IMG/VR virus record: IMGVR_UViG_3300047443_000094
Coordinates: 1-59,716 of that record
Reading direction: 5' to 3' (one strand)
DNA: 59,716 nucleotides
Source of the DNA: a virus
Of the stretch, positions 20,270-59,708 are shown in pieces. How positions within the stretch are numbered: position 1 is the first letter of the stretch; every line of letters starts with the position of its first letter. The position numbers and the translations under genes were made by a program. The notes under the pieces are model-generated. The model saw only the letters and a list, made by a program, of their open reading frames with translations. It was not told where the DNA came from and ran no database searches.

Positions 20270-20698
20270 TTGACACCCGACCTAGACCTAAATCGTAGGC
20301 AGTGGACAAAAACCCGAGGGCCAATTACCGCTATTGGAACATGGTTGCGGCTGGATGGCTCTTTCCGGCCCTGCATGGTCCTAATTCGAGCGGGCAGCGA
20401 ATTGGAGGACGGGCTGATACCGTGTGTGGTCACGCAAGACCGCGCATGGATCTGGTCTGAAGAAATCGGCGATCCAGCGGAAGCCGCACGCACTGCGTTC
20501 CAGTTCGCCAACTGCCTCAGACTTTCCGCGCATGACAGACGCACGCTGATCTTCATCGCGTCGTTCATCAACGACATGCTCGGCGAGCTCCTGTCCATCC
20601 CCCCGTACCAGCCAGACACAACGCCCGTGGTCGCGGAAGCAACCATGATCAACCACAGCACCGGCAGGACTGTGGAGACGGAGATGAGAGATGTTTGA
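20270..20698 (+). CDS. Hypothetical protein with TTG start
   Basis: A 142-aa protein between large terminase and portal, translated from a TTG with a strong aggagg six bases upstream. No nearby in-frame ATG is better. Mixed alpha/beta, unrecognised. The end overlaps the portal start by 8 bases. The ribosome site is buried in a hairpin, so its expression may be restrained. Confidence 0.65.
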   Translation: MTPDLDLNRRQWTKTRGPITAIGTWLRLDGSFRPCMVLIRAGSELEDGLIPCVVTQDRAWIWSEEIGDPAEAARTAFQFANCLRLSAHDRRTLIFIASFINDMLGELLSIPPYQPDTTPVVAEATMINHSTGRTVETEMRDV

Positions 20699-22989: not shown

Positions 22990-23943
22990 ATGGACAAGAT
23001 GAGTGCAGAGCAACTGGCGTTGCTTACAGATGAAGAACGCGAAGGCCTCCTCGAGGAGATCGACGAGGGCGAGGGCGATGAAGACGGCGGTGATGATGGC
23101 GCCGAGGATACGACGTCCGCCGATGGTGCTGACACCGGCGGCGAAGGTGAGGATGAGGGCGATGAAGACGGCCAAGACGACGGTGATGATGTCGCTGCCG
23201 CAGAGGCTGCGGCTGTTGCAACTCAGGACCAGAAGGCAGCCGAAGCCGCCGCCGCTGCAGCAGCGCCAGTGGTCGAGGATATCGCCGAGGATGAGCCCGA
23301 GGAACAGGCGCCGCGGTGGATCTTGCCAGCGGACCATCAGACGAAGATCGACGATATCGAGGCGCAGAAGGACGCGCTTACCGAGAAGTTCGACGACGGC
23401 GAGCTGACCGGTGGGGAGTATCGCGCATCTATGAAGGCGCTCGATAAGCAGGCGGACGAACTGAAGAGCGTCAAGATCAGGGCGGAAGTCGCACGCGACA
23501 CCGCGATCGACACGTGGAAGGATGATGTTGCCAGCTTCATGGGCGAGCATCCGGAGTACACGAAGTCGAAATACCTACGCGACGCGCTGGACGCCGAGGT
23601 TCGCCAGCTTCAGTCGACGTCGGTAAATCCGCTCAACCCGAAAATCCTTGCCAAGGCCCATGCCAAGATTGCCGGAGAGATCACGTCTGCGTTCAAGCCG
23701 GCCGATCCGAATCCGGCAGGGAAACCCACGGGCAAACAGGCCGATCCGGGGAAGCCAGCGAAGAAGCGGGACGATCCGCCGCCGACGCTGGCGCATGTGC
23801 CTGCCTCTGATCCAACGGATGCGGATGATGGTGGCGAGTTCGCGCACCTCGACCGCATGTTGTCGAAGAACGATTCCCTTGGTTACGAGAAGGCGCTCGC
23901 CGCCTTGCCGGAAGCCAAGCGCGAACAATACCTGGCTCAGTGA
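22990..23943 (+). CDS. Scaffold-like protein
   Basis: A 317-aa protein directly after the portal. Residues about 20-75 are almost entirely Asp/Glu/Gly/Ala, residues 120-210 are helical coiled-coil (KIDDIEAQKDALTEKFDDGE), and the tail is Pro/Lys-rich with a final helix. This acidic, helical make-up and its position match podovirus scaffolding proteins, which guide capsid assembly and then leave. Sequence identity with known scaffolds is not claimed. Confidence 0.7.
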   Translation: MDKMSAEQLALLTDEEREGLLEEIDEGEGDEDGGDDGAEDTTSADGADTGGEGEDEGDEDGQDDGDDVAAAEAAAVATQDQKAAEAAAAAAAPVVEDIAEDEPEEQAPRWILPADHQTKIDDIEAQKDALTEKFDDGELTGGEYRASMKALDKQADELKSVKIRAEVARDTAIDTWKDDVASFMGEHPEYTKSKYLRDALDAEVRQLQSTSVNPLNPKILAKAHAKIAGEITSAFKPADPNPAGKPTGKQADPGKPAKKRDDPPPTLAHVPASDPTDADDGGEFAHLDRMLSKNDSLGYEKALAALPEAKREQYLAQ

Positions 23944-23949
23944 GGCACA

Positions 23950-24123
23950 ATGCTCCATCTCACGGTTAAGATCGGACAGGCAGTCGATATCCCGGGCGTC
24001 GGGAGAATCATCTTGAAGGAGAAGAGCGGCCGTTGCGCTAAACTCGCCTTCGACGTCAGCACAGATCAAGAGATCAAGCTGCTCCCGCTACCGGGGGCGG
24101 ACCGTGAGCTGGTCACGAAGTAA
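23950..24123 (+). CDS. 57-aa CsrA-like protein
   Basis: A 57-aa protein, MLHLTVKIGQAVDI at the start, then strands IILKEKSG, CAKLAFDV and EIKLLPLPG. The opening matches the CsrA pattern MLxLTxKxGExxxI, and the size and strand order also fit CsrA, a dimer that binds GGA in mRNA leaders. The later strand has IKLLP where CsrA has VHREE, so the key arginine is missing or moved and RNA binding is not assured. tgagg lies before the ATG. It is followed by the initiator-type tRNA. Similarity is judged by eye. Confidence 0.6.
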   Translation: MLHLTVKIGQAVDIPGVGRIILKEKSGRCAKLAFDVSTDQEIKLLPLPGADRELVTK

Positions 24124-24225
24124 CGGACGCACGGGCGCAAGAGTGCCCGCTCCGGCATCTGTGAATGTTGCCGATGCCCGTTGACAAAAATCCTAGCCCT
24201 CTTTCTTCTCACCATTATCGACTGA

Positions 24226-24302
24226 CGCCGAGTAGAGCAGCCCGGTAGCTCGTTAGGCTCATAACCTATAGGTCGCTGGTTCAAATCCAGCCTCGGCAAC
24301 CA
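24226..24302 (+). tRNA. tRNA-fMet (CAU), phage-borne initiator type
   Basis: A 77-base cloverleaf. The acceptor stem is cgccgag/ctcggca with an unpaired C1-A72, the mark of bacterial initiator tRNA that allows formylation. The D arm holds agcccggta in its loop, the anticodon loop is ctcataa (CAU), the T arm is gctgg-ttcaaat-ccagc, and CCA is encoded. The anticodon stem has G-C at 30-40 and 31-39 but A-U at 29-41, so one of the three G-C pairs normal for initiators is lost, and 27-43 is mismatched. A tTGACA-like box lies at 24181 but no well-spaced -10 is seen. Confidence 0.9.
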
Positions 24303-24414: not shown

Positions 24415-25302
24415 ATGAAGATTGCCAAGTTAAGCATGCTGAGCGCCATCATTGGCCTCGTCTGCCTCTCCATCTCACCTGCCGCAGCTCAAACCGTTCG
24501 CCTCTGCACTGGCGCGGCCAGCGGCAACTATTTCGCGGCTGGCGACATGATCAAGAAAATGGCGGGCGCCAGCCTCGATATTGAAGTCGTCGAGACCGAG
24601 GGCACGATTGACAACCTTGACCGTCTGCTGACGGTCGCGAAGGATGACGCGCAGGCCTGCGATGCAATGATCGGCCAGCCAGACGGTCCGGTCTACATCT
24701 CTCGCAGCTCACCAGCGAACGTGAAGAAGCTCCGCCAAGTCGCGAGCCTGCATCGTGAATACCTGCATGTGCTCTGCAACAAACAGAGTGGCGTCGACGA
24801 TCTCGGTGACCTCGAAAGCGCGCCCGACAAGTACCGCATTGCGATTGGCGAGCAGGGCTCAGGCGCTTGGCTGGTTTGGCAGAACCTCGTATCCGAGGAC
24901 AGCGACTATGGGGCGGTACCGGTGTCGAACGAAGGCGGCATCATGGCGCTATCGTCCGTGTCCAGCGGCGATACCACCTGCATGCTTGTCCCGGCTGGCC
25001 TCAAAAATGGCACGGTGATGGAAGCCGATAGCACGTTCGGCGACACGATTGCCCTCGTCGGCGCCAATGACAAGGATTTCGACGACGCCTTGGACATGAA
25101 GGGGCAGCCGCTTTACGAGTATGCGAAGATCCCGGGCGATGTCTATCCGAAGTCCTTCGACTACTGGAGCGACGTGAAGACGATCTCTTGGCTTGCCGGG
25201 GTCTATGTCAACATTGACCGCGTTGACCAGAAGTCGCTCGCCACCTTCATCCAGGCGGCCAGCCGATCCGCTTCGGGCATCAAGGCCGAGTTCGGCAAAT
25301 GA
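24415..25302 (+). CDS. TAXI-type periplasmic solute-binding protein
   Basis: A 295-aa protein with a clear signal peptide (SMLSAIIGLVCLSISPAAAQ) and the fold signature of TAXI-family TRAP receptors. RLCTGAASGNYFAAGDMIKK is the N-terminal ligand loop, followed by LDIEVVETEGTIDNLDRLL, QVASLHREYLHVLCNK and KYRIAIGEQGSGAWLV. TRAP membrane partners are absent from the whole window. The function may therefore be something other than uptake, for example binding or exclusion in the periplasm. It starts a run of small membrane and secreted genes. Ribosome site aggaag. Confidence 0.75.
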   Translation: MKIAKLSMLSAIIGLVCLSISPAAAQTVRLCTGAASGNYFAAGDMIKKMAGASLDIEVVETEGTIDNLDRLLTVAKDDAQACDAMIGQPDGPVYISRSSPANVKKLRQVASLHREYLHVLCNKQSGVDDLGDLESAPDKYRIAIGEQGSGAWLVWQNLVSEDSDYGAVPVSNEGGIMALSSVSSGDTTCMLVPAGLKNGTVMEADSTFGDTIALVGANDKDFDDALDMKGQPLYEYAKIPGDVYPKSFDYWSDVKTISWLAGVYVNIDRVDQKSLATFIQAASRSASGIKAEFGK

Positions 25303-27757: not shown

Positions 27758-27898
27758 CCGGAACCTTCGAAACCGTAATTCAGGTATGCGAGATTTATGT
27801 TTCCCATAGGGCGTTTTCCAGTCCTGACACGTGCCAATCGCCGCTTCCAAAAAGTCTTCCTACCGCATATAAACAGGTGTCATTTACCGCGCATGAGT

Positions 27899-27921
27899 GC
27901 GGCTTCTACGATGGAGCCCGC
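27899..27921 (+). promoter_or_regulatory. Imperfect hairpin over the giant gene's ribosome site
   Basis: gcggcttc and ggagcccgc can pair with one bulged base and one G-U pair, loop tacgat. The right arm contains the ggag in front of the ATG at 27924. Weaker than the other leader hairpins. Confidence 0.3.
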
Positions 27922-27923
27922 GC

Positions 27924-30900
27924 ATGCCTCTGGTGATTGGCCTCGGCCGAGATGATAGCTGGAAAGACCCCCTCAATCTCTACGGCGGCAAAGCCCCCGA
28001 AGCTCCAAAGACCAGTGAGGCGAGCGCATCCACGCGCCCGTCGTTCAGCGATGCGGACAGAAGCGATCTCGTCAACACGGTGATTGCTGAAGCTGCGGGC
28101 GAGGGTGACGCCGGCATGGCCGACGTTGCGTCCGTTATTCGCAACCGCTCTTCTGAGAGAGGCATCAGCCCCGGCGACGTTGTGCGCCAGAAAAGACAGT
28201 TCACCGGTTATGAGGCCCCGGGCGAGGCTGCCAAGCGCGCCCAGCAGGATCCAGTCCTGCGCCAGCGCGCCGAGGCCATCATCGATGGTGTCTTCTCCGG
28301 CGCACTCCCTGATGAGACTGGAGGTGCCGATCACTATCACGCCGATTCTGTCATGCCAGATTGGGCGAGCTCGATGCAGGAGACGACAAAACGCGGTCGC
28401 CACGTCTTCTACAAGTCCGGTCAGCCCGGGCAGAGCAAGCCTTCCGCCAAGACAGCCTTTGCACCCGGCCTCGATGGCAGCGTCGTCGATCCGTTCGAGG
28501 CAATCCTGAACCCGAAGAAGGCGGAACAGCCGAAGGACGGTAGCGCCGACAGCTCCATGCTGCTGAGCAAGCTTCAGCCAGGCAAGCCCGCCGAGTACGT
28601 CAGCAACATGAAGCCGGGCCTTCAGTCTGGCCTCACTGCGATGTTCAACGATGCACCGGATTTCGTGAAATCCGGCCTCGACATCCTTTCTGGTGCGCGC
28701 TCTCCGGAGCGGCAGGCGCAGATCATCGCGGAGAACGCCGGTAAGTACGGGATCGACCGCAAGGCGTGGCTGGCTGACGTCGACGCCATGGGCCCAGTTG
28801 AGGCCGGTCAGAAGTGGAAGCCGATTTTCAAGCAGACCGGCATGTCGGCGAACATCGGCGCCCCAGGTGGATCGCGGCATCAACACGGCGATGCTGCCGA
28901 TCTCGGCTGGAACGGAGGCGAATTTTCATCGGCGCCGAAGGAAGTCGTCGATTGGGTGCACGCGAATGCCGGGAAGTATGGCATGCGCTTCCCGCTCAAG
29001 AACGAGAACTGGCATATCGAGACGGCGGACGCTCGTGACGGTCATGACGCTGAGGCGCCCAGCTCACCAAAGTCAGAAGCGCCAACGATTGTTGCCAATG
29101 CTCACTTCGCGGTCAAAGATCCGATGGGGCTTTATCCCGAGGGCAACCCAATCCAGCAGACGGTGGATACGCAGGTGGCGGCTGCCGATCAGCGGCAGGC
29201 GGACGCCAGCGCCCAGGCTGAACAGAACCGGATGGGTGCCTTCACCGAGCAGCACAACGTCGGAGTGACCGATCGGCAGCAGCAGCTCGAGGCGGAGAAC
29301 CCGGGCCGCTACGTCGCGATCGACGAGAGCGAGCTTCCGAACTGGCAGAAACAGTGGGAAGCCGATAACCGCTCCGGCGGCATTGGCGGCGACACAGCCC
29401 GCATCCTGAAATCCGGTACGATCGGAGTTGGGCAGTCGCTATCCTCGTTGGCCGACACGCTATTTCGGAAGCTGCCAGGCGGCGACGACTTCCTGAAGGC
29501 GTCCGACGACATCGACCGTTGGGTGATGGGCAAGACCATCGACCAAAAGATGGCCGATTCCCAGCAGCGGGCGAATGCCAGCGTGACAGAGCGCCAGCAG
29601 GACGCCGACGCCAAGAACTGGTGGGACGATAAGAAGCATACCTTCGGCCCAGCGTGGCGCGATCCTCGCAGCTATCTCCGCACCGTCGGTGAAAGCGCTC
29701 CCGGTACCGTCGTCACGATGTTGCCAGGCGGCGTGTTGGCGCGTGGGGCATATCTGCGTGCTCTTGCGGCTGGCGCTACGGAACGCGCGGCAGCCGCGAC
29801 TGCTGCCAGAACGGCCACACTCGCAGGTGCCATTACCGAAGGCACCATGGGCGGAGCCGATTCCGCTCGCAACGTTCGTGACAAGATCGGGAAACTGCCG
29901 CGCGAGCAGCTGGCGAAGACTGAAGCCGTTCGGGCGATGGTACAGGGTGGCATGTCGGAAGACGAGGCCATCAAGGCTCTTTCCGAGGACGCTGCCTCCC
30001 AGGCGTTCCTCACAGCAGGTGTTGCCACCGGCATGTTTGGCGGTATGGGCGATCGGGCGCTCGCCAAGATTATTGCCGAAGGTGTCGGTGGCGGCATCGT
30101 CAAGCGCATCGTCGCCGGAGCCACCCGTGGTTTCGTGGGCGAAGGCTTGCTCGAAGAAGCGCCGCAGGGCGCGGCACAGACGATTGCGGAAAACGCGGCC
30201 GTTCAGAAGGCTGATCCAAACCAGTCTCTGACGGAAGGCGTGGGGGAGGCGGTTGCATCCGGTGTCGCGGCTGGCGGTGCCATGGGTGCAGGCATGGGCG
30301 GCGCAGGCGGCGCGTTCCGCCCAGCCTCCCCCGAACATTCCGCGGCGGCGCCTGCCGTAGCAGCACCGGCACCCGAGGCCGCGCCTCAGCCCAAGGGCCC
30401 GATCGGGCGCTCGGTGCAGCACGCCGAGGAGCAGATCGCAGGCCGACAGCAGCAGCGACTGGCCGACGATACCATGCCGGATTGGCTGCTGGACCTCGGG
30501 CGGAGCGGAAAGACCGCCAACGATCACATCGACGGGTTGCTGAAAACGGCATCTGCTGACATCGAGCGGGAGCAGGCCAACCGTCCCTCAGTCGGCGCGA
30601 CGGTCCGCGTTGATCATGAGGGCATCGACCCGTTCATGGCGCGCGTAGACAGCTACGAGGGCGATGAGGCCGTCGTCATCGATGGCGGCAGCGGCGAAGT
30701 GTATCAGGTTCCGATCGCGAGCATCAGCCAGATTGCCAAATCGCCGGAACAGCTCAATCGGGAAAACCCGATCGAGAAAGGACCGGTTCCGATCAATGAT
30801 AGCATTCCCGAATTTTCGAAAGACCCAGCGCTTGAACCGCAGGCACCGGTTGCCAGCGAGATCAAGAGCGAGCCGCTTCCCGCTCAGAAGGATATGCAGG

Positions 30901-33900
30901 CGGCGACGGAACGTCTTCGCGGGCGCCCGTCGCCTGGTCAGCGCGTCATCGTCGATGATGCGCGGGTAGGGCGCTTCGCTGCAAAGGTCGAGAGCTATGA
31001 GGAAGGCGACACCGAAACCGTTGTCACGACCGACGACGGCGAGGTGCTGCAGGTTCCTGTTGACCGCCTCTATGTCGATAAGCTTACCCCAAAGCAGATC
31101 GAGAAGCAGGATCTTGAACGAAATCCACCGATCGAACGCGAGATTGGTGACGCCGGTCCAAACAGCCGAAAGGTTATCGGAAAGACAGTCGTACTTCCCG
31201 ACGAGAACCACGCCGCGTTGTTCGACCTCGCGAAATCTCGCTTTATTGCGAAGAAGTTGGGCAGGGAAGCTCACACAGACCTTGAACGGGTAAGTGCCGC
31301 CGAGGTGAAGCGTCTTGCCGATGCCTTCAATGTCTCGCCGACTGCCATCACCTCGATGGCCGATGATTACCGCTATCGTGTCGACCGCGCGGCGAAGGAA
31401 GCCCGATCCACGTTGCCGGTGCATATGCATCCGGTCAACGACACGCGGCTGCGCCAGTGGCAGCGTGATCGCAAGAACGAGGAGAGCGCCGCCAGCGCTG
31501 CGCCGGAAACCACAGAGCAGGGCGATAGCTTTGCCGACTGGTGGGACCTGACGCTCGATGATCTCGGGCGCAAGCGTGTCCTCGCAGAGACCGGCATCAA
31601 GCGTAGCGAGAAATCGAAGTGGGCTGGTTTCACGCCCGCGATCAGGAAGAAGCTCGAGGCGGTTCGGACGCCGGAGACGCCTAAGACGACGCCCGCCGAT
31701 GTCACCGCGGTTCCGGATATGCCGGCTGGTGTCGTGTCCCGCTTCACCACGGCCAAGGGCAGTGTGTACGAGGTCCACCAGGACGGAACCACGGTTCGCA
31801 CCAAGGCGGCGAGGAACGATCCGGGGCACGAGGGTGATAGCGGCCTGAAGCCGCGCACCGCGAAGACGGTTTACGTCGATGCGAACGCGTCCGTTCTCAG
31901 CACAGCAGGCATGAGCGGTATCGGCTCGAAAGGCTCGCGCGTCATCATCAAGGATGGCAAGGCGTCGCTGCTGACATGGAACGAAGCACAGAACCGCTGG
32001 GGCGTGATGCCGGACGGACGCGACGTTCCAGTGCACGATCAGCCAGCCGTTGGCCGCTTCCCGCTGGAGCTTTGGCAACCGGCCTCCGATGTCAACGGCT
32101 ACGAAGCCTACAGCCGCATGCACGCTGGCAACGCCATCACCGAAATGTCTGCGTCCGCTGTCCAAGGACAGAGGACAGACGGCGCGGACGATTCATCTGC
32201 GCATGAGGCGGCAACCTCTCCCAAGAACGATTTGCCCGAGCCGACGCAGGCTCAGAAGGAAGCCGGAAACTACAAGGTTGGCAGGCTCAAGCTCGGCGGC
32301 CTCGATATCTCAGTAGAGAACCCCGAAGGCTCTGAACGCAAGGGCACCGACGCCAGCGGCAAGCCATGGTCCGTCAAGATGAAGAGCCACTATGGCTACA
32401 TCCGCGGGACCATTGGCCGCGACAAGGATCATATCGATACCTTCGTTCGCCCTGGTGTGAGCGAGCTCGACGACAGCGCGCCGGTGTTTGTTGTTGACCA
32501 GAAGAGCGAGAACGGCCGTTTCGACGAGCACAAGGTGATGCTCGGTTTCGATACCGAGGAGGCGGCGCGCAAGGCCTACCTCGAAAACTACACCGCCGGC
32601 TGGAAAGGCCTTGGCGACATCTCCGCAACCACGATGGATGATTTCAAGCAGTGGCTGAAGTCGGGCAAGACTGATCAGCCGTTCGCGCCGAAGTGGTTCG
32701 GCTCGCGCGAGAAGGCGGACGCCTATATTGCCAAGCAGTCGCTCGGGAGCTCGCACGAAGTCGTCGAGAACGGGAAGCGGTTCGAGGTCAGGGAGAAACC
32801 CGCGGCTCCGACACGGGAAGAACAGGCCCCGCAGCAGGAACGCGCACAATCCGGGCCGCCGCAGATCGTATCCGCCGACGCACCCGAGATCGACCTTTGG
32901 CGCGGCGCGAGCAAAGCCGAAATCGCGGCGATCAAGGCCGGCGAATACGAATTCCGCCCGACCCACAAGGGCATCATGTTCACGACCGATCGTAGGACGG
33001 CGGAATCATATGGTGGAACGACTGGCAACGAAACGTTGGCGATCAAGATCCCGACGTCTGCGAAGATCCTTGACCGCAAGTCACTGAGCGACCGACCACC
33101 GGCGTTCGACGAAGTGCTAAATGCGTCTGGCAAACGGCCGGGGTTCGATATGGATCAGCGCCAGGCCTTTTTCCGGGAAGAGGCTCGCGAGCGCGGCTAT
33201 GACGTCCTGACCTATGCTAGCGGAACCGGTACATATCAGGTCTACGAGATCCTGAACCCCGACATCATCCAGATTGTCGATCAGGCCACGCCGGCCGCAC
33301 AGCCGAAGTCAAAGCCGGCCGTGTCCGTCAACAAGATTTTCACGCTCGATGCGGCTGAAAAGGCCCGCGCGCTTCTTCGCAAGAAGCTTAACCAGATCAA
33401 CTCTGGTATCGATCCTGAGCTTATGCAGGCTGGCATTACGCTCGCCGGTTACCACATCGAGAGGGGCGCCCGCACTTTCGCGGCTTATGCCAATGCCATG
33501 CTCGTCGATCTAGGCGAGGCAGCGCGCCCGTATCTGAAATCGTGGTATATGGGTGTAAAGTACGATCCGCGCGCGTCAGCCTTCGCCGACATGTCGAGCG
33601 CGACCGAGGTGGACGGCATCGATGTCGCCACGATCACGGGAGACGAGAGTGAACCTGCAGAACTGGATCGAGCTGGGTCGCCAGCACTGGAAGGAACACC
33701 TGCCGACGAAGTACCGGGAGCTGAAAGCAGCCGGGAAACTCGACCAGGCGCTGACGGACGCGGCCGAGCAGACGTATCGCGAGACAAGCCAGCTCGAGGA
33801 GAGCGGGTACAGTCCGGACGAGGCGTGGCAGATGAGCAGGGAGAACTATCTCTTGCTGCCGGAAGAGACCGCGACACCCGCTCCGAAAAGCGAACTGACG

Positions 33901-36900
33901 CATCAGATGGCGAAAGCCGCAGCAAGCGGCCAGCGGTCGATGAAAATCTAGAGCAGGGTCCGTTCGGCCCGATTCTTCGCGGCTACGAAGGCAAGTGGCG
34001 GGAAGCAGCGCTAGAGCTCGAGCGCCGCCAGACCGGCGACGCGATCGGCGCTCTCTCGCATCCAGACGTAGGGCCCATCGATCTCGTTTGGGGGAATGCC
34101 GGCACGAACGCGAGCAACGGAGCTGGCCTCGCCAAGCTGATTGCATGGCACCCGGAAGTGCTCGGCAATCTCCAAGGTTTCATCGATCGTCTTCACGTTG
34201 ACAAGGATCGCAGCACCACTCGTCGCATCCAGCTCAGTGACGAGAGCGGCAATGCCGGTGTGCGTCTCGACTATGACGGCACCGCGAAAACATGGCTGCT
34301 GACTGCTTTTGAAAATGGTTCGCGGCGCTCTGAGAAAAGTTCACGCCGTCTCAGCGCTTTGTGGGGTGACCGGCCTGCGTCGGCCCCGCCGCGAACAGAT
34401 GAGAATATATCGGATCAGTTGCGCGATGTCCAATCCGCCGCGGTGCCGGCACAGCAGCGCGCAGTTGACTACACGTTGTCTGCCGACGACAACCTCGGCG
34501 AGGGCGGTCAGAAGGCCAAGTTTGCTGGCAACGTCGCTGCGATCAGGCTACTGCGCACCCTCGACGAAGAGAAGCGCCCGGCAACCCGTGACGAACAGGC
34601 AGTGCTTGCAAAGTGGGTAGGCTGGGGCGGATTACGCCAGGCATTCGCCCGCGAAGATGGTTCTGTTGCCAAGGGATGGGAGAAGCAGGCGGCCGAATTG
34701 AAGGGCCTGCTTTCACCGGAGGAATACAGCGCCGCCGAATCCTCGACGCGCAACGCGCACTACACCGCGGCCGAAGTCGTGTCTGCGATTTGGGACATTG
34801 CACGGAAGCTTGGTTTCAAGGGCGGGCAGGTGCTCGAACCGTCGGTGGGCGCTGGCAACTTCCTCGGCCTGATGCCGGGGGATGTCCGGAACGCGGCAAA
34901 GGTGACTGGCGTCGAGCTCGATCGCGTTACCGGCGGTATCGCGAAGAACCTCTATCCCAGCGCCAACATCCAGACCCCGATGGGCTTCGAAAAGCTCTCG
35001 GTGCCTGATAGCTATTTCGATCTAGCGATCGGCAACCCGCCTTTCGGCAGCGAAAAGGTATACGACAAGGACCGTCGTCACCTAAACAAGCTGTCTATTC
35101 ATAATTTCTTCTTCGCAAAGAGTGTCGACGCTCTGCGCCCGGGTGGCGTGTTGGCGATGGTTGTCACCAACCGCTTCCTCGATGGTCAGTCAGCCGCGGC
35201 GCGAAACCTCATCGCGAAACAGGCCGATCTCGTCGCGGCAATTCGCCTGCCGAATAACGCGTTCCTCAAGAATGCAGGTACCGAGGTAACCACGGATATC
35301 GTCATTCTCCGCAAACGCCTTGCCGGCGAGGCACCATCGTCGAGCCAATGGCTTGGTGTGTCCGACTATCGCGGGCGTGACGGTAACGTGGTCCCGCTCA
35401 ATGACTACTTCGTTGCGCATCCCGAGATGATGCTCGGCGAGTTCGGCGCGTTCGGCTCGATGTATGGGCCAGATGAGCCAGCGCTGATCGCGCGTGGGGG
35501 CCAGGACACGCCGGCCGAGCTCGCGAAGGCTATCCGCAGCCTTCCCGAAAACATCATGGTGGAGCCCGGTCACGTTGCCACAGAGACCGTGTCAGTGCCG
35601 GAGACGGTCAACGACGTGCAGGTTGGCTCGATGTTTGCGGCTCCGGATGGAACCATCCACCAGCGCCTTTCCGATTCAATCGGGCAAGCGCAGTCTGCTG
35701 CCGTTGCTTTCCCGAATGAGACGGCAAAGGAACGTGTGTCGGGCATGGTGCGCGTGCGTGACGCCTTCGCCCGGCTGCGTCGTGCGCAGATTGACGAGAA
35801 GGCTACCGACCAGCAGATCGAGAACCTCCGCAACCGGCTCAACACTCTCTACGACGGGTTCGTCAAGAAACACGGCCCGATCAATGCGGACGCCAACAAG
35901 CGGCTGTTTCGCGATGATCCCACTTGGCCCCAAATTTCGGCACTGGAGCAGGGTTTCGATAAGGGTATCAGCGCTACCGTTGCGAAGGCGACCGGCGAGA
36001 AGGCAACGCCAGCATCGGCGCAAAAAGCAGCGATCTTCTCGAAGCGAACCCAGCAGCCGTACCGCCGCCCGACGTCGGCCAGCAGTGCCAAGGACGCTCT
36101 CGCGACCATCCTTAATGATCTTGGCCGGGTTGATCTGGACGCAATGTCTCGGCTCTACGGCAAGCCCTCGGACGCGATTGTCAGCGAGCTTGGCCCACTT
36201 CTCTATAAAACCCCGTCGGGCGCATATGAGACGGCGGACGCCTATCTCTCCGGTAATGTGAAGCAAAAGCTCGCCGAGGCGGAGCGCGCCGCCGAGCAGG
36301 ATTCGGACTTCCGCCGGAACATCAACGCTCTGCGTGACGTGCAGCCGGCCGATATCGAGGCGATCGACATCGATGTTAAGCCCGGTTCACCCTGGGTGCC
36401 GGCGAAGCACATCGAGGACTTCATCAAGCATGTTGCTCAGTCCTCAGTGAAGCCGAAGGCCTACTATTCCGCAGCGAATGCCAAGTGGGTGCTCGACGTT
36501 CCGTCGCCCGCTTCGGCGGCTCAGACACAATGGGGCACCGATCGCGCCAGCGTTGACACCGTCCTCAGTGCGGTGATGAACGGTCAGTCCATCACGATCT
36601 CAGACCGGATGAACGACGGCACGACGGTCCTCAATCAGCCGGCAACCGAAGCAGCGAACGAGAAGGCGGAGCGCGTAAAGGCGGAATGGCGCCGTTGGTT
36701 GTGGGATAATGACGCCCGCCGCGATGAGCTGGCGCGGCTCTACAACGACACCTTCAACACCGACGTCATGCGAAGCTTTGACGGCGGGCACCTCACGCTG
36801 CCGGGCAAGGTTGGTGACGACATCATTTCCTTCCGGCCGCATCAGAAGAACTTCGTATGGCGGTCGCTGCAATCCGGAACGGCATTGGCCGACCATACCG

Positions 36901-39900
36901 TGGGCGCGGGTAAAACCTTCGCCGCAATCGCGTCGGCGATGGAAAAGCGCCGCATCGGCCAGGCACGCAAGCCCATGTTTGTCGTACCGAACCATCTCGT
37001 TGGGCAGTGGGCGGCGGATTTCGTTCGCCTCTATCCGGGCGCGAAAGTTTTGGCCGCCACGAAAAAGGATTTCGAGAAGGATAACCGCAAGCGGCTATTT
37101 GCCCGCGTCGCCACCGGTGACTGGGACGCCGTCATTGTCGCCCACTCCTCTTTCGGCAAGATCGGGATCGACCCGAACTACGAAAGCCGATTCATCCAGC
37201 AACAGATGGATGATCTCGAACAGTCCATCGGGGAGCTGCGGCGTAACACCGGCGAGAAGTCGCGGAACGTCGCCCAGCTCACCAAATGGCGCGACAACCT
37301 CAAGGCCAAGATGGAACGGCTGCTGGATGCCGGCAAGAAGGACGATGGCCTCACGTTCGACGAGCTCGGCGTTGACGCCCTCTATGTCGACGAGGCGCAT
37401 GAGTTCAAAAACCTCGCTTTCGCCACATCCATGAACCGCGTTGCCGGTCTCGGCAATCAGGCGGGCAGCCAGAAGGCGTCCGACCTTTATATGAAGAGCC
37501 GGTTCATCCTCGAAAAGACCGGCGGCAATAACGTGGCGTTTCTCACCGGAACGCCGCTCAGCAACACCATGGCCGAGATGTTCACCGTTCAGCGGTACCT
37601 CGACGAGAAGGCGCTGCGCAATCTCGGTGTCGCGCATTTCGATGCCTGGGCAAGAGTGTTCGGCGAGGTAGTCAGCGATTGGGAGCTCTCGCCGAGCGGT
37701 CAGTACAAGCTCAACAGCCGGTTCGCCAAGTTCGTGAACATGCCCGAGCTGATGCAGCGCTATCTCAGCTTCGCCGACGTCATCACCAACGACGACATCA
37801 AGGCGCAGCTGGCTGCGATCGGCAAGAAGCTGCCGCTGCCGAAGGTGAAGGGCGGCAAGCCGACGAACATCACCGTCGAACGCTCGCCAGATCAGGCAGC
37901 CTTCATTGGCGAGGGCAAGGCAGACGAAAACGGTAACCTCGAGTTCCCGAAGGGCTCCCTCGTGCACCGCGCCGAAAATCTGCCGAAGAAGGCGGAGAAG
38001 GGCGCCGATAACATGCTGAAGGTTATGTCGGATGCCCGCAAGGCGGCGCTCGACATGCGCCTGATCGATCCCGCTTATTCGGATCATCCGGGCTCGAAGG
38101 TCCATGTCTCCGCCGACAACATCAAGCGCATCTACGATCGCTGGAGCGGGGACCGCGGCACGCAGCTGGTGTTCATCGACCTCTCGACGCCGAAGAAGGC
38201 TCGCGCCCGTGAAGAGGCGGAGCTCCGTGCCCTGATCCAGAAGGCAGACGAGGGCGACGAGGCGGCGCAGGAAAAGCTCGACAACATGTCGCCCGATGAC
38301 TTCCTCGCGCTGCAGAGCACGTTCTCGGTCTACGATGATCTTCGCGAGAAGCTGATTTCCCGCGGCATCCCTGCCGATGAGATCGCCTTCATCCACGACG
38401 CCAACACCGAGGCGCAGAAGGAAGAACTGTTCGGAAAGGTCCGATCAGGCCGCGTCCGAGTCCTTCTCGGTTCAACGCCGAAGATGGGCGCCGGCACCAA
38501 CGTTCAGAACCGTCTCGTTGCGCTCCATCACCTCGATGCGCCGTGGCGTCCGTCCGACCTCGAACAGCGCGACGGCCGTGGTATCCGCCAGGGCAATGAG
38601 CTCTATGGACAGGATCCGGACAACTTCGAAATCGAAATCCTTCGCTACGCGACGAAGAACACCCTCGATGCGCGCCAGTGGCAGGGCATCGAGGCGAAGG
38701 CTCGGTTTATCCAGCAGGTCCGCAAGGGCAATCTGAAAACCCGCGAGATCGAGGACATCGCCGGCGAGGCAGCGAACGCGGCCGAGATGAAGGCTGCGGC
38801 CTCCGGCAATCCTCTCATTCTCGAAGAGATGGAAACCCGCCGTAAGCTCCGCCAGCTTGAAGGCCAATCGGTCGAGCACGATCGCGAACAGCACCGTATC
38901 AAGGGCAAGATCAGGTCGCTCAAGCAGGAGGCCGACGAGATCGAAGCGCGCTCGATCTCCGTGCAGAAGGATGCGGAGCGGGCGGAGGCGATTGCCGACA
39001 AGCCATTTGAGGCGACGATCGGCGGTCAGAGCTTCGATAAGCCGAAGGAATTCGGTGCCGCAATAGCCGCGGCCATGCGCAAGGAGCTGATCGACCACGC
39101 CGGCGACACGGAACTCGGTAAGTATGGCGATTTCACGCTGTCGATCGAGCACCAGTATGATCGGGCGTTCGAAGTCACGGTATCTGGCGATCGTGACTAT
39201 CAGGTGCACGTCCAGGATGCTGCCGACGTTGACGCGACCGGTCTCGGCATGCGCGTGATCAACACCGTCAAGAAGCTCTCGACGGTGCCCCAGTTGGACC
39301 GCGATCGCGCGACAGAGGCGAGGGGGCAGATCCCGGCGCTTGAAAAGCAACTCGGCCCGTGGAAGCACGCCGAAGAGCTCACAGACACATCTGCGCGCCA
39401 TCGCCGTATTCTCGATGCACTGAAGCCAAAGCAGAAGGGTGCTGCAAACGCTGCCGTGGCAAAGCGCCCCGATCCAGTTGTTCGTGGCGACGGCCGGTTC
39501 AAGGAGGCGCAGGCTCCGGAGCGTGGCGAGGGCGAGAGCTACGCCGATTGGGCCCGCCGCATTGTCATGGAGAATGGCCGATCGAGCGGTCACGAGTATC
39601 TCGTTGCGATTGACGATGACGGTTCGACGATTGAGTTCGGTACGGCCGGCGATCCACGCTACACCGGCATGAGCAACAAGCTCGCCTCGGCAATGGCGAA
39701 CCCGGATCGCAGCCTGGTGCTCTATCATAATCATCCGGCCGACACGCCGCTTAGCGCCCAGGACATCGCCGCGACCGTTTACCCCGGCGTGCACCAGATC
39801 TACGCGCTCGGGCATAATGGCTACGATACCGTTGGTGGCATGACATCCGCGGCAAGGGACTATCTTTCTGCCAGCCCGAATATCACGCGGGACAGCCTCA

Positions 39901-42900
39901 CCTTCTCGAACAATCTTGCGACGATTTCCTATGAGGTCGAGCCCTATCTCGCCAACCTCGTGAAGGAGCGCCGTATCACCGAAGCACAGGCCAAAGAGGC
40001 ATTCCATCACTTTGCAGCGATTGTGGCTAACCGAGCCGGCATCATCGACTTTTCAACGAGCAGGCCTTATAACCCGTCAATTGTTCCGGGGCTTGATCGG
40101 AAAATTGACGAAGCCGCTCTGAAACTCGCGAGGGCATTCTTCAAAAATGGAAAACCAGATCCAAGCAGTCCAGGGACTAATCGATCCTCCAACGCCGTTC
40201 GACACGTTGCAGGCATGGAAGGATTGGGCTCAGTCGATCAGCAAGTGGCCGGCCCACGATCCGCAGCGACAGGTCTTTCTGAAGCAAGCACGCCAGATGA
40301 TTCAGGAAAAGTCGAAGGGCGAAAGCGCGTAACCGAAACGCGCGTCGTCAAGGAGCTCAATGGTAAGCTCATCGACATCCAGCCGACACTCCTGAAGACG
40401 GTCCCGCTGAACTATTTCACGGAACTCGCCCGGCCGAACATGACCGCTGTCGGAGACTACCTCCGCGTCAAGCGCCTCATGGACGCCTACCGTGGCACGA
40501 AGCATGCCGCCGCCGACGAGATCGCCGGGGAGTGGCTGAAATATGCCCGCCTCGGTTTCCTCGGCAAGGACAAGAGCCGGGCCCAGGAATTGGCGAACCT
40601 GATGCACAACAGCACGCTTGCTGGCGTCGATCCGAGCAAGACTGACGAGGAGACCACGAAAAAGCCCGGATATGAGCTGCTACGGAAGCAGTATATGGCG
40701 ATGCCGGAGAAGGGCAGGCAGCTCTATCGGAGTGTCCGCGACGCCTACAAGAAACAGGCGCTCGAGCTCGACGATATCCTTCTCGATAATGTGAGGAAGG
40801 CCCAGCAGATCGCCCACGATCGCGCCGAGGCTCGCTATCGCAAGACCATGGAGAAAATCAGGGACAGTGGACTGACGGGCATCGATCGGCGCAATGCCGA
40901 AGAAGATGCAGCAAGTGCACACAAGGCGGAGACGACGAAGGCCACGTGGGCGGCGAAGGCCCGGCTGACGAAGATGCGCATCGCGTTCGAGGCAAGCCGC
41001 GTCGAAGAGCCCTATTTCCCGCTTGGCCGCTTCGGACGGTATTTCGTCACCCAGCGCGATATTGACGGCAGGGTTTTGAGTTTCTCGAAGTTCGAGACGG
41101 CCGCGGCCCGTGACCGTTTTGCGGCGGAGCTGAGCCGTGGTGCTGGCGGCGCCAAGGTCGAGGTGGGTGTGATGGAGGCGGGGAGCGATCTTCGCAAAGC
41201 CATGGATCCGCGCATTGTTGCCGAGATCGAAGAAATTCTCGGTGGCGCAGGCGTCGGCAACGACATCATGGATCAGATCTGGCAGCGCTATCTGGAAAGC
41301 ATGCCGGACCTTTCGGCTCGCAAGCGTTTCATCCATCGCCAGGGCACCGCAGGCTTCACCGGCGACGCGTTGCGGGTGTTCTCGTCGCACATGTTCCACA
41401 GCGCCCACCAGATCGCGCGGCTGAAGTACGGGCTTGAGTTGCAGGAGCTCACCGGTCAGGCCATGGATCAGGCAAAGGAGAGCGACGATCAGACCCGTGG
41501 CGTTACGCTCGCCAACGAGCTGTCGAAGCGCCATGAGTGGGTGATGAACCCGACCGGCAGCAAGGTCGCGCAGACCATGACGAGCACTGCCTTTGTGTGG
41601 TTCCTCGCAGCCTCACCGGCCGCTGCCGCCGTCAACATGACGCAGACTGTTATGCTCGGCCTGCCGATCCTGTCGGCGAAGTTCGGCAGCTTCGCCAAGG
41701 CAGGCGCGGCGCTCGCGCAGGCGTCCATGGATACGGTCAGAGGCCGCGGCTCGATCGTCAACGGCAACCTCTCGAAGGACGAAAAGGCAGCGATCAAGGC
41801 CTTCTATGAATCGGGCCTGATCGACCGGACGCAGAGCCACGATCTTGCAGGCGTCGGCGAGACCGGTGTGGAGTACACGCCGCTGCGGGCCCGGGTGATG
41901 GGTGTTATCTCCTGGGCGTTCCACCGTGCCGAGGTCTGGAACCGAGAAGTGACGGCGCTGGCGGCCTATCGCATGGCGCGTGACGCAGGCGAAACGATGT
42001 CGGCGGCGATCGACACCGCGCACGATCTGACGTGGAAGACGCACTTTGACTATGCGAACTCCTCCCGGCCTGCCGTGTTGCAGAACGACCTTGCCAAGGT
42101 CGCTCTCGTCTTCCGCCAGCACAACATCAACATGCTCTATCGGCTGTTCCGGGATGTTCAGCAATCCATGAAGGGTGAAACCGCCCAGGCGCGCAAGGAG
42201 GCGCGCTATCAACTCGCCGGCGTCGTCGGCATGATGTCGCTGATGGCGGGCGTCTCGGGCACCGTTGGCTTCCATCTGCTGATGGGGCTCGCCGGTATGG
42301 TGTTCGGCGACGATGACGATCCAATGGATTTCGAAACGCAGTTTAAGGCCAACGTCATTGATATCCTCGGGCCCGAGCTCGGTGGCGTAGTGTTGAATGG
42401 TGTGCCAGGTCACTACCTCGGCATTGATCTTTCGAGCCGGATCGGCATGCCGGACTTGTGGTTCCGTTCTCCGTCTCGCGACCTGCAGGGCAAGGACGAG
42501 TACCAATACTGGCTCACGCAGACGCTCGGCGCGACTGCGGGGCTCGGGGAGACGCTCTACACCGGTGGCAGCCTGATCTATGACGGCGATGTTGCCCGTG
42601 GCATTGAGATGATGGCGCCCAAGGCGATTCGCGACCTGATGAAATCCTACCGCTACGCCAGCGAAGGGCTGGCGACCATCGGCGGGGATCAGGTGCTGCC
42701 GGCCGATGAGATGGGCTATCATGACATCGTTGCGCAAGCGCTCGGCTTCAACCCGGCAAGGGTCGCGGAGACGTGGGACCGTAACACGGCATTGAAGAAC
42801 GCGGAGCGGCGCGTGCTCGACGAGCGTCAGCGCCTGGTCAACAAGTTCGCGATGGCAGCCATGTCACAGGATGATGGTGCGATCGATGATGCCGTGAAGG

Positions 42901-44893: not shown

Positions 44894-46129
44894 TTACCGG
44901 CCGAGGCCGATCTGGTTCCGGCTGGAAACCGCTAGGGCGGACCCGAGGGATTCCGGCCACTGCTCGCGCGGAATGCCGTTGTTGAGGAGTTCCTGGGCGA
45001 TGCGCTGCGGGTTCTCGCCGGATTTCACGGCTTCGTCTGCCGACTGTAGAAGGTATGTCACGTTGTCTTCGCGCGTTTGCTTGGGAGCCGGCTGCTGCGC
45101 CGAAGGCGTCTGCTGCGGTTGCTGCTGCTGGGGAGCAGCCGCAACCGGCTTGCCGGTCGCGGTGTCGACGATAACCTTCCGCGACGGTCCACTTGGTGCA
45201 GCCGATGCCACGGGGCCATCGGCGGACAATCCAGGCTGGCCGCCCTGCAGATCGATTTCCGAAGCGATCAGCTTCTCTTGCTCCTGACGCGAAAGATCAT
45301 CGAACTTCGTTTCATTCCCGGCAATGCCGCCGTCCATACGTTTGCGAAGGGCTGAAATGGCATCGCCACGGGTCTTGTTCTCGCCAGTGCCGTATTGCTT
45401 GTCGATTTTCTTCTTCGCCTCGTACTGATCAAGGTCCTTGGCATCTTTCGCAGTCGCGGCCCGAGCCTCGACCTGGCTTTGCCACGCGGCTTCTGGATTG
45501 AGGAATGTCGCGATCAGCCGCGGCATGTCCGCCTTCTGGATGTCCTGTTCGACTTCCTTGCCATCGGGTGTCTTCAGACGAAGACGGTAGCCGGCGACGG
45601 AACCATCAGGCGCAGCGAGGTTATCGTGGCCGAGAACTTCGTATCCGTGATCGATGTAGCCTTTCATCTGACCGGCTTTCATCACGTCTGCCAGAGCGCC
45701 GTCAGTATCACCGGTTTGGGCCTTCAGGAGGGCACCCATGGCAAGCTTGCCGCCTGCCTTGGCTTCTGCGCTGTCGCCCCACGCCTGAACCTTCCGTGCG
45801 TTGTCCAGATCGCCATTCGCGATGTAGGTCTGCGAGAGCTTTGGCACTGCATAGCTCGACCAGAATGTATCGAAGTCGCCGGGTTGTTGCGTTCCGGCCT
45901 TCACGGCGGAATCGAACTTCTCCTGCGCCTGTGTCCCGATCGCGGCGATGTCCTGCCGCTGCTTCTCGTCACGGGCGTAGTCGGCGTCAGCGCGTGCATC
46001 GAGTTTCTTCTGCCGTTCAGCCTGGCCATCGAGATACTCGGAGCGCTTGCGCTCCTGCCGAATCTGCTGGCCCTTCTGATAGCCATCCATGAAGCCGCCA
46101 AGGCCGATTCCGATTGCGCCCAAGCTCAT
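44894..46129 (-). CDS. Putative internal virion protein
   Basis: A 411-aa protein. The N-terminus (LGAIGIGLGGFMDGYQKGQQ) is glycine-rich and amphipathic, then long helices with many Gln/Glu/Ala, then a Gln/Pro linker and a C-terminal helical end. This layout matches podovirus internal or ejection proteins rather than an enzyme. The start overlaps the S74-type gene by 4 bases. No confident family. Confidence 0.6.
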   Translation of the reverse strand: MSLGAIGIGLGGFMDGYQKGQQIRQERKRSEYLDGQAERQKKLDARADADYARDEKQRQDIAAIGTQAQEKFDSAVKAGTQQPGDFDTFWSSYAVPKLSQTYIANGDLDNARKVQAWGDSAEAKAGGKLAMGALLKAQTGDTDGALADVMKAGQMKGYIDHGYEVLGHDNLAAPDGSVAGYRLRLKTPDGKEVEQDIQKADMPRLIATFLNPEAAWQSQVEARAATAKDAKDLDQYEAKKKIDKQYGTGENKTRGDAISALRKRMDGGIAGNETKFDDLSRQEQEKLIASEIDLQGGQPGLSADGPVASAAPSGPSRKVIVDTATGKPVAAAPQQQQPQQTPSAQQPAPKQTREDNVTYLLQSADEAVKSGENPQRIAQELLNNGIPREQWPESLGSALAVSSRNQIGLGR

Positions 46130-47286: not shown

Positions 47287-47338
47287 ATGTGCCAACCTCG
47301 TGATGGAGGCCGCACTCTTGCGCGACGTGTTCGGGGCT

Positions 47339-55239: not shown

Positions 55240-56337
55240 TTACGAGTTCGGGTCCTTTGCGGCGGTGTCCAGCGCCAGAAGGCCAAAGTCCTTGCCGTTG
55301 AAGCGCGTCTTCTTGACGCCAGCGATCACGCCTGCGGAGATCACGGGTTCGTTGCCGTGGTCCTGCATTTCTTCAGTCCATGTGAAGCGGAAGCCGCCGG
55401 TCGAGCCGAAGGCCACGACGCCTGCCTGGCGTCCCATGAACAGGGCACGAGCAGCGTTCACGTTGCCGCCAGCGCCGAAGTCGGAGAAGCGGATCACGTC
55501 CTCGTGCTCGTGAAGCACGACGTTGTTGATCATGCCGAGGCCGCCCTTGAAGATCGGGTTGTTGCGCCCTTCGGCCGTTGCTGCAGCCTTCTGGATTTCC
55601 AGCCAGCCGCCCTGATCGTTGGTGCGCAGGTCATAAGACTGGAACTTGCTCATGACGCAGACGTAGTGGGATTCGCCGTTGATCATCAGCGGCATCATCT
55701 GCGCGTTCTCAGGTGCGACGGCAGCCATCATGCTTGCCTTCGTGCCAGCCTTTTCGATCAGGCCACGCGAAATCTTGTCCGTCGCGTCGATCGATGCCTT
55801 GCTGGTTGCGTCGCCGCCGTAGAGGATGTGGTCGGTGTCGGGAGCCTGAATGGGGTTGGTCGCGTGACCGGTCCAGCTCGTGTCTTCAATGAAGTTCTCG
55901 TTGATGCCGCGGGCGCCGGCGAGATAAATGAAGATCATCTGGTCGATGAACTTGGACCAGTAGTCGGACAGGCGGTCCTTGCCGATCTTGCGGATGTTGT
56001 GGACCGTGCGCTTGCGGCTCATCTTGCCGCCAGCAGAAACGCCGTGGCGCATCTGGTCGATGAGGATTTGATCCGAGAAGAAGCGAAGGTTTTCTTCCTT
56101 GCCCTGCAGACGGTTGTCGCCGTATGTCGGCTTGCCGCGTAGCTGAACGGAAAGGTCGAAGGTGATGGTGTCGCCGGCGTCCGATTCCAGATCGGTAAGA
56201 CGCTGGATCGCGTATTCGTCGCTTTCGCCGATGAACTTGCGGTCCCAGTAGCTCTTCGCGAATGTCGCGATGAAGAGGTTGCCGGACCACTTTTTCTGCG
56301 CCTTGGGATCACCAAAGCCGACGGTAACTGGGGCCAT
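55240..56337 (-). CDS. N4-gp56-family major capsid protein
   Basis: A 365-aa protein starting MAPVTVGFGDPKAQKKWSGN. The core NLFIATFAKSYWDRKFIGES, GDTITFDLSVQLRGKPTYGD and HYVCVMSKFQSYDLRTNDQG follows the N4 gp56-type HK97-fold capsid proteins. aggaga precedes the ATG at 56337. It is the first gene of the leftward late operon, facing the lysis genes, with its promoter in the 149-bp gap at 56338-56486. Confidence 0.9.
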   Translation of the reverse strand: MAPVTVGFGDPKAQKKWSGNLFIATFAKSYWDRKFIGESDEYAIQRLTDLESDAGDTITFDLSVQLRGKPTYGDNRLQGKEENLRFFSDQILIDQMRHGVSAGGKMSRKRTVHNIRKIGKDRLSDYWSKFIDQMIFIYLAGARGINENFIEDTSWTGHATNPIQAPDTDHILYGGDATSKASIDATDKISRGLIEKAGTKASMMAAVAPENAQMMPLMINGESHYVCVMSKFQSYDLRTNDQGGWLEIQKAAATAEGRNNPIFKGGLGMINNVVLHEHEDVIRFSDFGAGGNVNAARALFMGRQAGVVAFGSTGGFRFTWTEEMQDHGNEPVISAGVIAGVKKTRFNGKDFGLLALDTAAKDPNS

Positions 56338-56373
56338 GAGTGCCAATCTCCTGAGTGAGGACAATCAGCACGT

Positions 56374-56456
56374 CTTGCGCAGTCACGCTCTAAATACTGG
56401 AAATAGCGTGTTGTTGCAATAACCGGCACATGATATTGAACCGGTGACTGCGCAAG
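56374..56456. repeat. 13-bp inverted repeat in the divergent late promoter region
   Basis: cttgcgcagtcac (56374-56386) and gtgactgcgcaag (56444-56456) are exact inverted copies with 57 bp between. They flank the start region for the capsid operon (minus) and lysis operon (plus). They may be binding sites of a late activator for both operons. Confidence 0.6.
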
Positions 56457-56458
56457 AG

Positions 56459-56484
56459 GTGCAGCTTCTTCAACGGAGCTGCAC
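56459..56484 (+). promoter_or_regulatory. Hairpin masking the endolysin ribosome site
   Basis: gtgcagct and agctgcac pair over 8 bp with loop tcttcaacgg. The ggag ribosome site straddles the loop and the right arm, and the ATG lies 3 bases beyond it. Translation of endolysin could therefore be held back until a change in the RNA. Confidence 0.5.
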
Positions 56485-56486
56485 TG

Positions 56487-57116
56487 ATGACCGCGACAGC
56501 GCTGAAAAATCCCAAGCTTTTCTTCGACACAATCCGCGAGGACGGCGGCCTCTTTCGCGGCAGCATGTCGTCGTCGCAGGTTGCCGGCATCAATGCCATT
56601 CTGGCCGAGGACGCAAAGTTCAAGCAGGATCCTCGCTGGCTGGCCTATGAGCTTGCGACCGCGTTTCACGAGACGGCCCGCACGATGCAGCCAGTCCGCG
56701 AAACAAAAGCCGCGAACGACAACGCTGCCATCGCAATTCTTGATAAGGCTTTCGCAACGGGTCAATTGCCCTGGGTGAAAAGCCCTTATTGGCGCAAGGA
56801 TGCTGACGGCAAGTCGTGGCTCGGCCGCGGCCTCGTCCAACTCACCCACAAGCGCAACTATGAAATTCTCGGCAAAGCTGTCGGTGCCGATCTCGTCGCC
56901 GATCCAGACCGCGCCATGGAAAGCCAGGTGGCGGTTGATATCATGTTCGTCGGCATGCGCGACGGGCTGTTCACCGGCAAGAGCCTCGCCGACTATTTCA
57001 ACAGCAACAACACCGATTGGGTGAATGCCCGCCGCATCATCAACGGCGTCGAGAGTGCCGAGAAGGTCGCGGGCTATGCCAAGGCGTTCTACATGGCGCT
57101 GAAGAACGCGGCATGA
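56487..57116 (+). CDS. Endolysin, GH19 chitinase-like
   Basis: A 209-aa protein of the glycoside hydrolase family 19 endolysin type: ATAFHETARTMQPVRETKAA near residue 60 with the catalytic glutamate, WLGRGLVQLTHKRNYEILGK near 112, and WVNARRIINGVESAEKVAGY near 175. It cuts peptidoglycan sugar links. No signal peptide is seen, so it would need the holin. First gene of the lysis cassette. It overlaps the spanin gene by 4 bases (ATGA). Confidence 0.9.
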   Translation: MTATALKNPKLFFDTIREDGGLFRGSMSSSQVAGINAILAEDAKFKQDPRWLAYELATAFHETARTMQPVRETKAANDNAAIAILDKAFATGQLPWVKSPYWRKDADGKSWLGRGLVQLTHKRNYEILGKAVGADLVADPDRAMESQVAVDIMFVGMRDGLFTGKSLADYFNSNNTDWVNARRIINGVESAEKVAGYAKAFYMALKNAA

Positions 57117-59617: not shown

Positions 59618-59632
59618 TTGGCGGAAGAGGTG
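59618..59632. repeat. attR core
   Basis: ttggcggaagaggtg, identical to 113-127 and part of the 3' end of tRNA-Ser. Right end of the prophage. Confidence 0.85.
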
Positions 59633-59708
59633 GGATTCGAACCCACGGTACGGTTTCCCGCACGCCGGTTTTCAAGACCGGTTCCTTAAACCACTCGGAC
59701 ACTCTTCC
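59619..59708 (-). tRNA. tRNA-Ser (UGA)
   Basis: A 90-base tRNA with acceptor ggaagag/ctcttcc, discriminator G and encoded CCA. The anticodon loop is cttgaaa (UGA). A long variable arm (gcgtgcgggaaaccgtacc) marks it as a serine tRNA. The integrase gene is adjacent, and the phage att core restores the 3' end after integration, so it stays functional. Confidence 0.95.

Follow-up and report, generated by a model that had tools for sequence, protein, structure and literature searches.

The 57-aa protein encoded at positions 23950-24123 of the window (the whole 59,716-nt stretch of viral DNA analysed here) is, on the evidence of profile comparisons and a predicted fold that support this well, a real but diverged homologue of CsrA. 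On balance we favour the reading that it belongs to the core late machinery of Bcep22-like phages, where it would act as the putative ligand of a hairpin at the 5′ end of late mRNAs and control late-gene translation. The original prediction had proposed either a phage translational regulator related to CsrA or a decoy for host CsrA. The CsrA relation is borne out by the profiles and the predicted fold, a regulatory role gains indirect support from a leader-RNA regulon in the same phages, and the decoy finds no such support.

A diverged CsrA homologue downstream of the packaging genes

The open reading frame lies exactly where it had been placed, on the + strand, and its translated product has 57 aa (MLHLTVKIGQAVDIPGVGRIILKEKSGRCAKLAFDVSTDQEIKLLPLPGADRELVTK). 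Its start is separated by 6 nt from the stop of the preceding gene and has a GAGG ahead of it. The description of the surroundings as a structural operon also agrees with our annotation, since the genes for TerS, TerL, phrog_10057, portal and phrog_8246 are found directly 5′ of the CsrA-like gene.

22990..23943, + strand: phrog_8246 gene, directly 5′ of the CsrA-like gene, with an acidic product
23950..24123, + strand: CsrA-like gene of the phrog_8397 family, 57 aa (open reading frame, profile match and fold model)

In relatives, the phrog_8246 gene sits between the portal and capsid genes, and its homologue is virion-associated in phage JC1 (PMC9144972). Homologues of the CsrA-like protein with 36-96% identity occupied the identical locus in each relative examined, including Sinorhizobium phage PBC5, Agrobacterium phage Atu_ph08, a Sinorhizobium MAG, Shinella pollutisoli and many IMG/VR phages. 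Because the protein is conserved at a fixed genome position, a chance reading frame is ruled out.

Several neighbouring features were recorded along the way. The phrog_10057 gene (20270-20698, +), between TerL and portal, encodes 142 aa and is labelled DNA methyltransferase, a label that looks doubtful. A tRNA-Met (CAT) gene (24226-24302, +) separates the CsrA-like gene from a gene for an NMT1/TAXI-like solute-binding protein whose start resembles a signal peptide (24415-25299, +; PF16868, phrog_6856). The latter is a moron in a variable slot 3′ of the CsrA-like gene, where Atu_ph08 carries different genes, one of them annotated as a chemotaxis protein. At the end of the window, a tRNA-Ser gene (59619-59708) adjoins the integrase gene, for which it may provide the attachment site.

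HMM similarity to CsrA was found with a family profile and not with the single sequence. Searches of Pfam, NCBIfam and PDB with the window protein as single sequence gave no CsrA match, and alone it matched only phrog_8397, ‘CsrA-like regulator’ (E=7.9e-4); no match to PF02599 was obtained and the Pfam gathering cut-off (27 bits) was not reached. Rhizobial relatives scored 15-22 bits against PF02599, below the cut-off, with the first 35-37 of 53 positions aligned, and the same-locus homologues of BcepIL02, Parlo and L249 scored 30-32 bits, above it. The family profile was made from a 21-sequence phage alignment from which bacterial CsrA had been left out, and its sole credible matches in PDB were CsrA and RsmE (best 2.3e-8, to the RsmE-RNA complex 2jpp). 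When the phage alignment was compared with CsrA by hhalign, values of 96-97% were obtained, against at most 2% for column-shuffled controls. The whole phage alignment matched the CsrA set, which took its bacterial references from E. coli, P. aeruginosa and B. subtilis, with E=3.9e-11.

Structure prediction pointed the same way. A first AlphaFold model, built from 14 close sequences, was uninformative (pLDDT 66, no CsrA among its structure matches), and a usable model (pLDDT 82) was obtained because the alignment was made more diverse. The first 15 Foldseek matches of this model were CsrA/RsmA/RsmE structures (TM about 0.7, probability 1.00 for most), to most of which it fitted within 1.2-1.4 Å across about 44 residues, and VIA gave Z of 5-6. 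The predicted fold is thus the CsrA fold, as the original prediction implied.

The same analysis showed how far the protein has diverged. The N-terminal pattern MLxLTxKxGQ is present, and the HREE region with its RNA-contacting arginine is missing, both as had been read from the sequence: strand 5 runs EIKLLPLPG where CsrA has Arg44 and HREE, with no Arg in either plausible register. Of the RNA-contacting strand 1 residues of CsrA, Leu4 is kept, Arg6 is replaced by Val and Arg7 by Lys; a C-terminal helix is not clearly predicted. Because Arg6 is Val, Arg44 and HREE are missing and the helix is not clear, the window protein is not a canonical CsrA. PMC7366521 describes this arginine (Arg44) as the residue by which CsrA reads the first G of GGA, and states that regulatory binding is lost when it is replaced.

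A decoy that traps host CsrA in dead dimers might be expected to combine the CsrA fold with loss of the canonical RNA-contacting arginine, as seen here. We consider a decoy highly improbable, because the host family, Rhizobiaceae as inferred from relatives of the window phage, almost never has CsrA (above the Pfam cut-off in 2 of 247 genomes). Moreover, same-locus homologues retain Arg44 and score above the Pfam cut-off, and the phages maintain the gene whether or not their hosts have CsrA; csrA-carrying phages are listed for Burkholderia hosts that have no chromosomal csrA (PMC7366521).

A core gene of Bcep22-like phages

The rhizobial phages form a branch of the Bcep22-like podoviruses, their portal proteins being 54-59% identical to those of Burkholderia, Klebsiella, Erwinia and Pseudomonas members. 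The CsrA-like gene is located between the phrog_8246 gene and the major capsid gene in BcepIL02, CSP3, JC1, DC1, Itty13, LASTA, PEp14, Skulduggery and Parlo, and an unannotated CsrA-like ORF occupies this interval in Erwinia phage Stean (L077:3490-3690). As a rule that the window also follows, the gene lies 3′ of the phrog_8246 gene with 0-2 small genes between them. The capsid gene of the window, like that of its close relatives, is far from the CsrA-like gene; in the window it is found at the opposite genome end and on the opposite strand. The JC1 and CSP3 papers list the CsrA-like gene as a moron (PMC9144972, PMC10269572), and no target RNA for phrog_8397 was proposed in the searched papers. 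Because its position is constant, we regard it as a core gene of Bcep22-like phages, and the window protein is a diverged branch of the known phage family phrog_8397. Separately, the CsrA-like protein of Skulduggery (L073:4188-4370) weakly matched the N-terminus of FlbT (PF07378, E=0.002), a hint of a possible distant relationship between alphaproteobacterial FlbT and CsrA. A match in L005 was spurious.

A mainly structural role in the virion or in head assembly, for a protein that retains the fold and no longer binds RNA, would fit three observations: the strict placement between the phrog_8246 and capsid genes, a single unique peptide detected in virions of JC1 (PMC9144972) and the fact that the rhizobial branch has lost Arg44. 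The JC1 authors state that a single peptide is insufficient to confirm this (PMC9144972), and such a role leaves the leader regulon described below unexplained; we judge it improbable.

Late-gene leaders share a hairpin element

Comparison of capsid leaders revealed a core element, GCGC-(A/U)NGA-(N)-GUGC. Five exact copies are present in the window, compared with 0.47 expected, and none of 100 shuffles reached five. The capsid copy is not independent, because the pattern was derived from the relatives together with that leader; the other four are.

24135..24146, + strand: element GCGCAAGAGUGC, 12 nt beyond the stop codon of the CsrA-like gene and contained in a 7-bp hairpin
27889..27923, + strand: leader of the giant DarB-like gene (ATG 27924), with element GCGCAUGAGUGC at 27889-27900 and a sequence pairing with SD/AUG
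47287..47323, − strand: leader of the virion structural gene phrog_8003 (46126-47286, minus), with element GCGCAAGAGUGC at 47312-47323
55240..56337, − strand: major capsid protein gene (phrog_334)
56338..56380, − strand: major capsid leader (ATG 56337), with element GCGCAAGACGUGC at 56368-56380 and anti-start pairing GUGCUGAUU/AUUGGCAC
56450..56486, + strand: endolysin leader (ATG 56487), with element GCGCAAGAGGUGC at 56450-56462 and anti-start pairing GUGCAGCUUC/GGAGCUGCAC
56487..57116, + strand: endolysin gene (phrog_181)

Four copies precede, by 23-30 nt, the start codons of the capsid, endolysin, phrog_8003 structural and giant DarB-like genes, and the site at 24135-24146 corresponds to the location of the capsid leader in Bcep22-like relatives. 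The giant DarB-like protein (about 5050 aa; 27924-43082, +) probably starts at ATG 27924, because the listed GTG 27897 falls within the leader element.

Across 27 phage records, 96 element sites were found, compared with 17 for the reversed pattern. Most lie in sense orientation, 18-45 nt 5′ of late-gene start codons and 3′ of a -10-like hexamer. Left out were pattern matches unlike late-gene leaders, mostly within coding sequence (CSP3, JC1, DC1, Itty13 and Mwe-JY07), and two that overlap an integrase start. In these two, L155 (PBC5, 961-972) and L116 (285-296), GCGCATGAGTGC overlaps the apparent integrase start codon (ATG AGT GCT), which may be coincidence or integrase regulation. No element site was found in Escherichia phage Pondi, where the context of the CsrA-like gene is unrelated. 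When IMG/VR was scanned with the -10 and element alone, 10 of the 45 new records carried a CsrA-like gene; the rest were mostly contigs without related genes, as expected of so short a pattern. At 12-13 nt, the element alone does not suffice for searching a whole collection, and about half of the IMG/VR hits fell in contigs lacking related genes.

A -10-like hexamer (at least 5/6) stood ahead of 64% of distinct leaders versus 12% of shuffles, and because it precedes most leaders the element is predicted to lie, probably, near the mRNA 5′ end. We use the term ‘-10-like’ only, because a sigma-70 scan of 56300-56550 gave no strong promoter. An Rfam scan of the window returned two tRNAs only, and no description of the leader regulon was found in the searched literature or Rfam. 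The element and its regulon are apparently undescribed, with an earlier mention for Bcep22/BcepIL02 being possible.

Leaders are predicted to form two exclusive structures

The pair flanking the core stem varies by gene (G-C, C-G, A-U, U-A and G-U; six pair types were counted). In 47 representative sites, hand-picked as one per gene class and lineage, the flank was paired in 34, compared with 20.6 expected by shuffling (p<1e-4, a value to be taken as a guide because some representatives are still related). In element matches from unrelated contigs, the flank was paired in 11 of 33.

The 3′ half of the element also pairs with the bases just 5′ of the start codon, for example GAGUGC with GCACUC-AUG, GACGUGC with CACGUC-AUG and, in BcepIL02, GGAUGUGC with GCACAUCC. 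For 78 unique leaders, the start-region pairing probability was 0.77 versus 0.24 in spacer-shuffled controls (Wilcoxon p about 2e-13), and the AUG was predicted to be paired at 0.68 versus 0.19. Leaders paired better with their own partner than with swapped ones when the flanks were included (p=1e-7; core alone, p=0.07). Forcing the 5′ hairpin had a median cost of 4.9 kcal/mol and reduced AUG pairing from 0.68 to 0.06, with the Shine-Dalgarno region still partly paired (0.44). Leaders of one variable-gene class default to the 5′ hairpin fold. Since the 3′ half of the element serves both the hairpin stem and the SD/AUG pairing, these predictions give good support to a leader with two mutually exclusive structures, one of which hides the start codon.

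The element has the form of an imperfect inverted repeat, placed 8-20 nt 3′ of a -10-like hexamer, and two window copies flank divergent transcription starts, as might be expected of a DNA operator or late-promoter element rather than an RNA. That explanation seems to us quite improbable, given that the element keeps a sense orientation in late leaders, that its loop has 4 or 5 nt and its distance to the -10 is variable, and that the flank pair covaries and the start-region pairing changes in step.

A candidate ligand and its proposed effect on late translation

In the mechanism that we propose, the 3′ half of the element would by default pair with the SD/AUG region and keep the start codon hidden. 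Expression of the packaging operon would supply the CsrA-like protein, which would capture the 5′ hairpin, the part transcribed first, so that the AUG would be freed and late translation activated. Candidate target mRNAs are those of the capsid, the endolysin, the giant protein and other structural genes. Both the role of the protein as hairpin ligand and the direction of its effect are what we infer. Activation is slightly favoured, because hairpin capture during transcription would free the AUG; somewhat less weight is given to repression, in which the protein would stabilise the closed form or bind the GGA in the Shine-Dalgarno sequence.

The CsrA site has the consensus CANGGANGU, which with one nucleotide fewer gives CANGANGU. 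GGA loops are found chiefly in lineages retaining Arg/Lys44 (Lessievirus, Skulduggery and Parlo), and NGA loops dominate where Arg44 has been lost, with PEp14/Stean and one window relative as exceptions. This tracking of GGA loops with Arg44 retention across phages is suggestive only.

The leader might alternatively be a translational-control RNA that responds to something else, such as a host factor, temperature or ribosome kinetics, while the CsrA-like protein does another job. The loss of the canonical arginine from the window protein and a predicted default fold that hides the AUG without any protein are consistent with this. We hold it to be unlikely, though worth keeping in view, as the CsrA homologue is the protein of RNA-binding type whose position is fixed throughout these phages and which adjoins the capsid leader in most, and as the loop resembles the CsrA site minus one nucleotide. 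Against the hairpin-ligand reading that we prefer, the RNA-contacting Arg44 and Arg6 are absent and most loops are NGA, not GGA; the co-occurrence of gene and element is partly confounded by shared phage ancestry; and a virion role is possible in view of the JC1 peptide (PMC9144972). We give even chances to the fullest form of our reading, in which the leader is bistable, its anti-start element is half of the binding hairpin, the loss of Arg44 went along with a relaxation of the GGA rule to NGA, and a CsrA-run regulon is dedicated to late genes.

Significance and comparison with known systems

Phage csrA genes have so far been called morons that alter host physiology; here, the gene is a core gene in a large phage group and is accompanied by a set of late mRNAs that are candidate targets of its own. 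The shared leader hairpin together with the CsrA homologue suggests a dedicated phage timing system for capsid and lysis proteins. If true, it would offer a simple model for the translational timing of these genes and a natural test of how RNA specificity changes in CsrA-fold proteins after Arg44 loss.

Like CsrA/RsmA/RsmE (PF02599), the window protein has the N-terminal MLxLT..xG, the strand order and the predicted fold, and an RNA hairpin is its likely ligand. In contrast to them, it lacks Arg6, Arg44, HREE and a clear C-terminal helix, and its presumed target loop, NGA, is one nucleotide shorter than in CsrA targets. With phrog_8397 ‘CsrA-like regulator’ proteins of Bcep22-like phages (BcepIL02 gp49, JC1 gp47 and CSP3 orf23) it shares locus, size, neighbours and detectability by profile; unlike them, the window branch has lost Arg44, falls below the Pfam cut-off and has its capsid gene relocated. 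A further comparison is with phage Mu, in which Com, a small zinc-finger RNA-binding protein, acts on the mom leader to free the sequestered start site of a late gene. The system proposed here resembles it in that a small phage protein would free a hidden late-gene start. Com has one known target, and the protein described here differs in having a CsrA fold and at least four late mRNAs as candidate targets.
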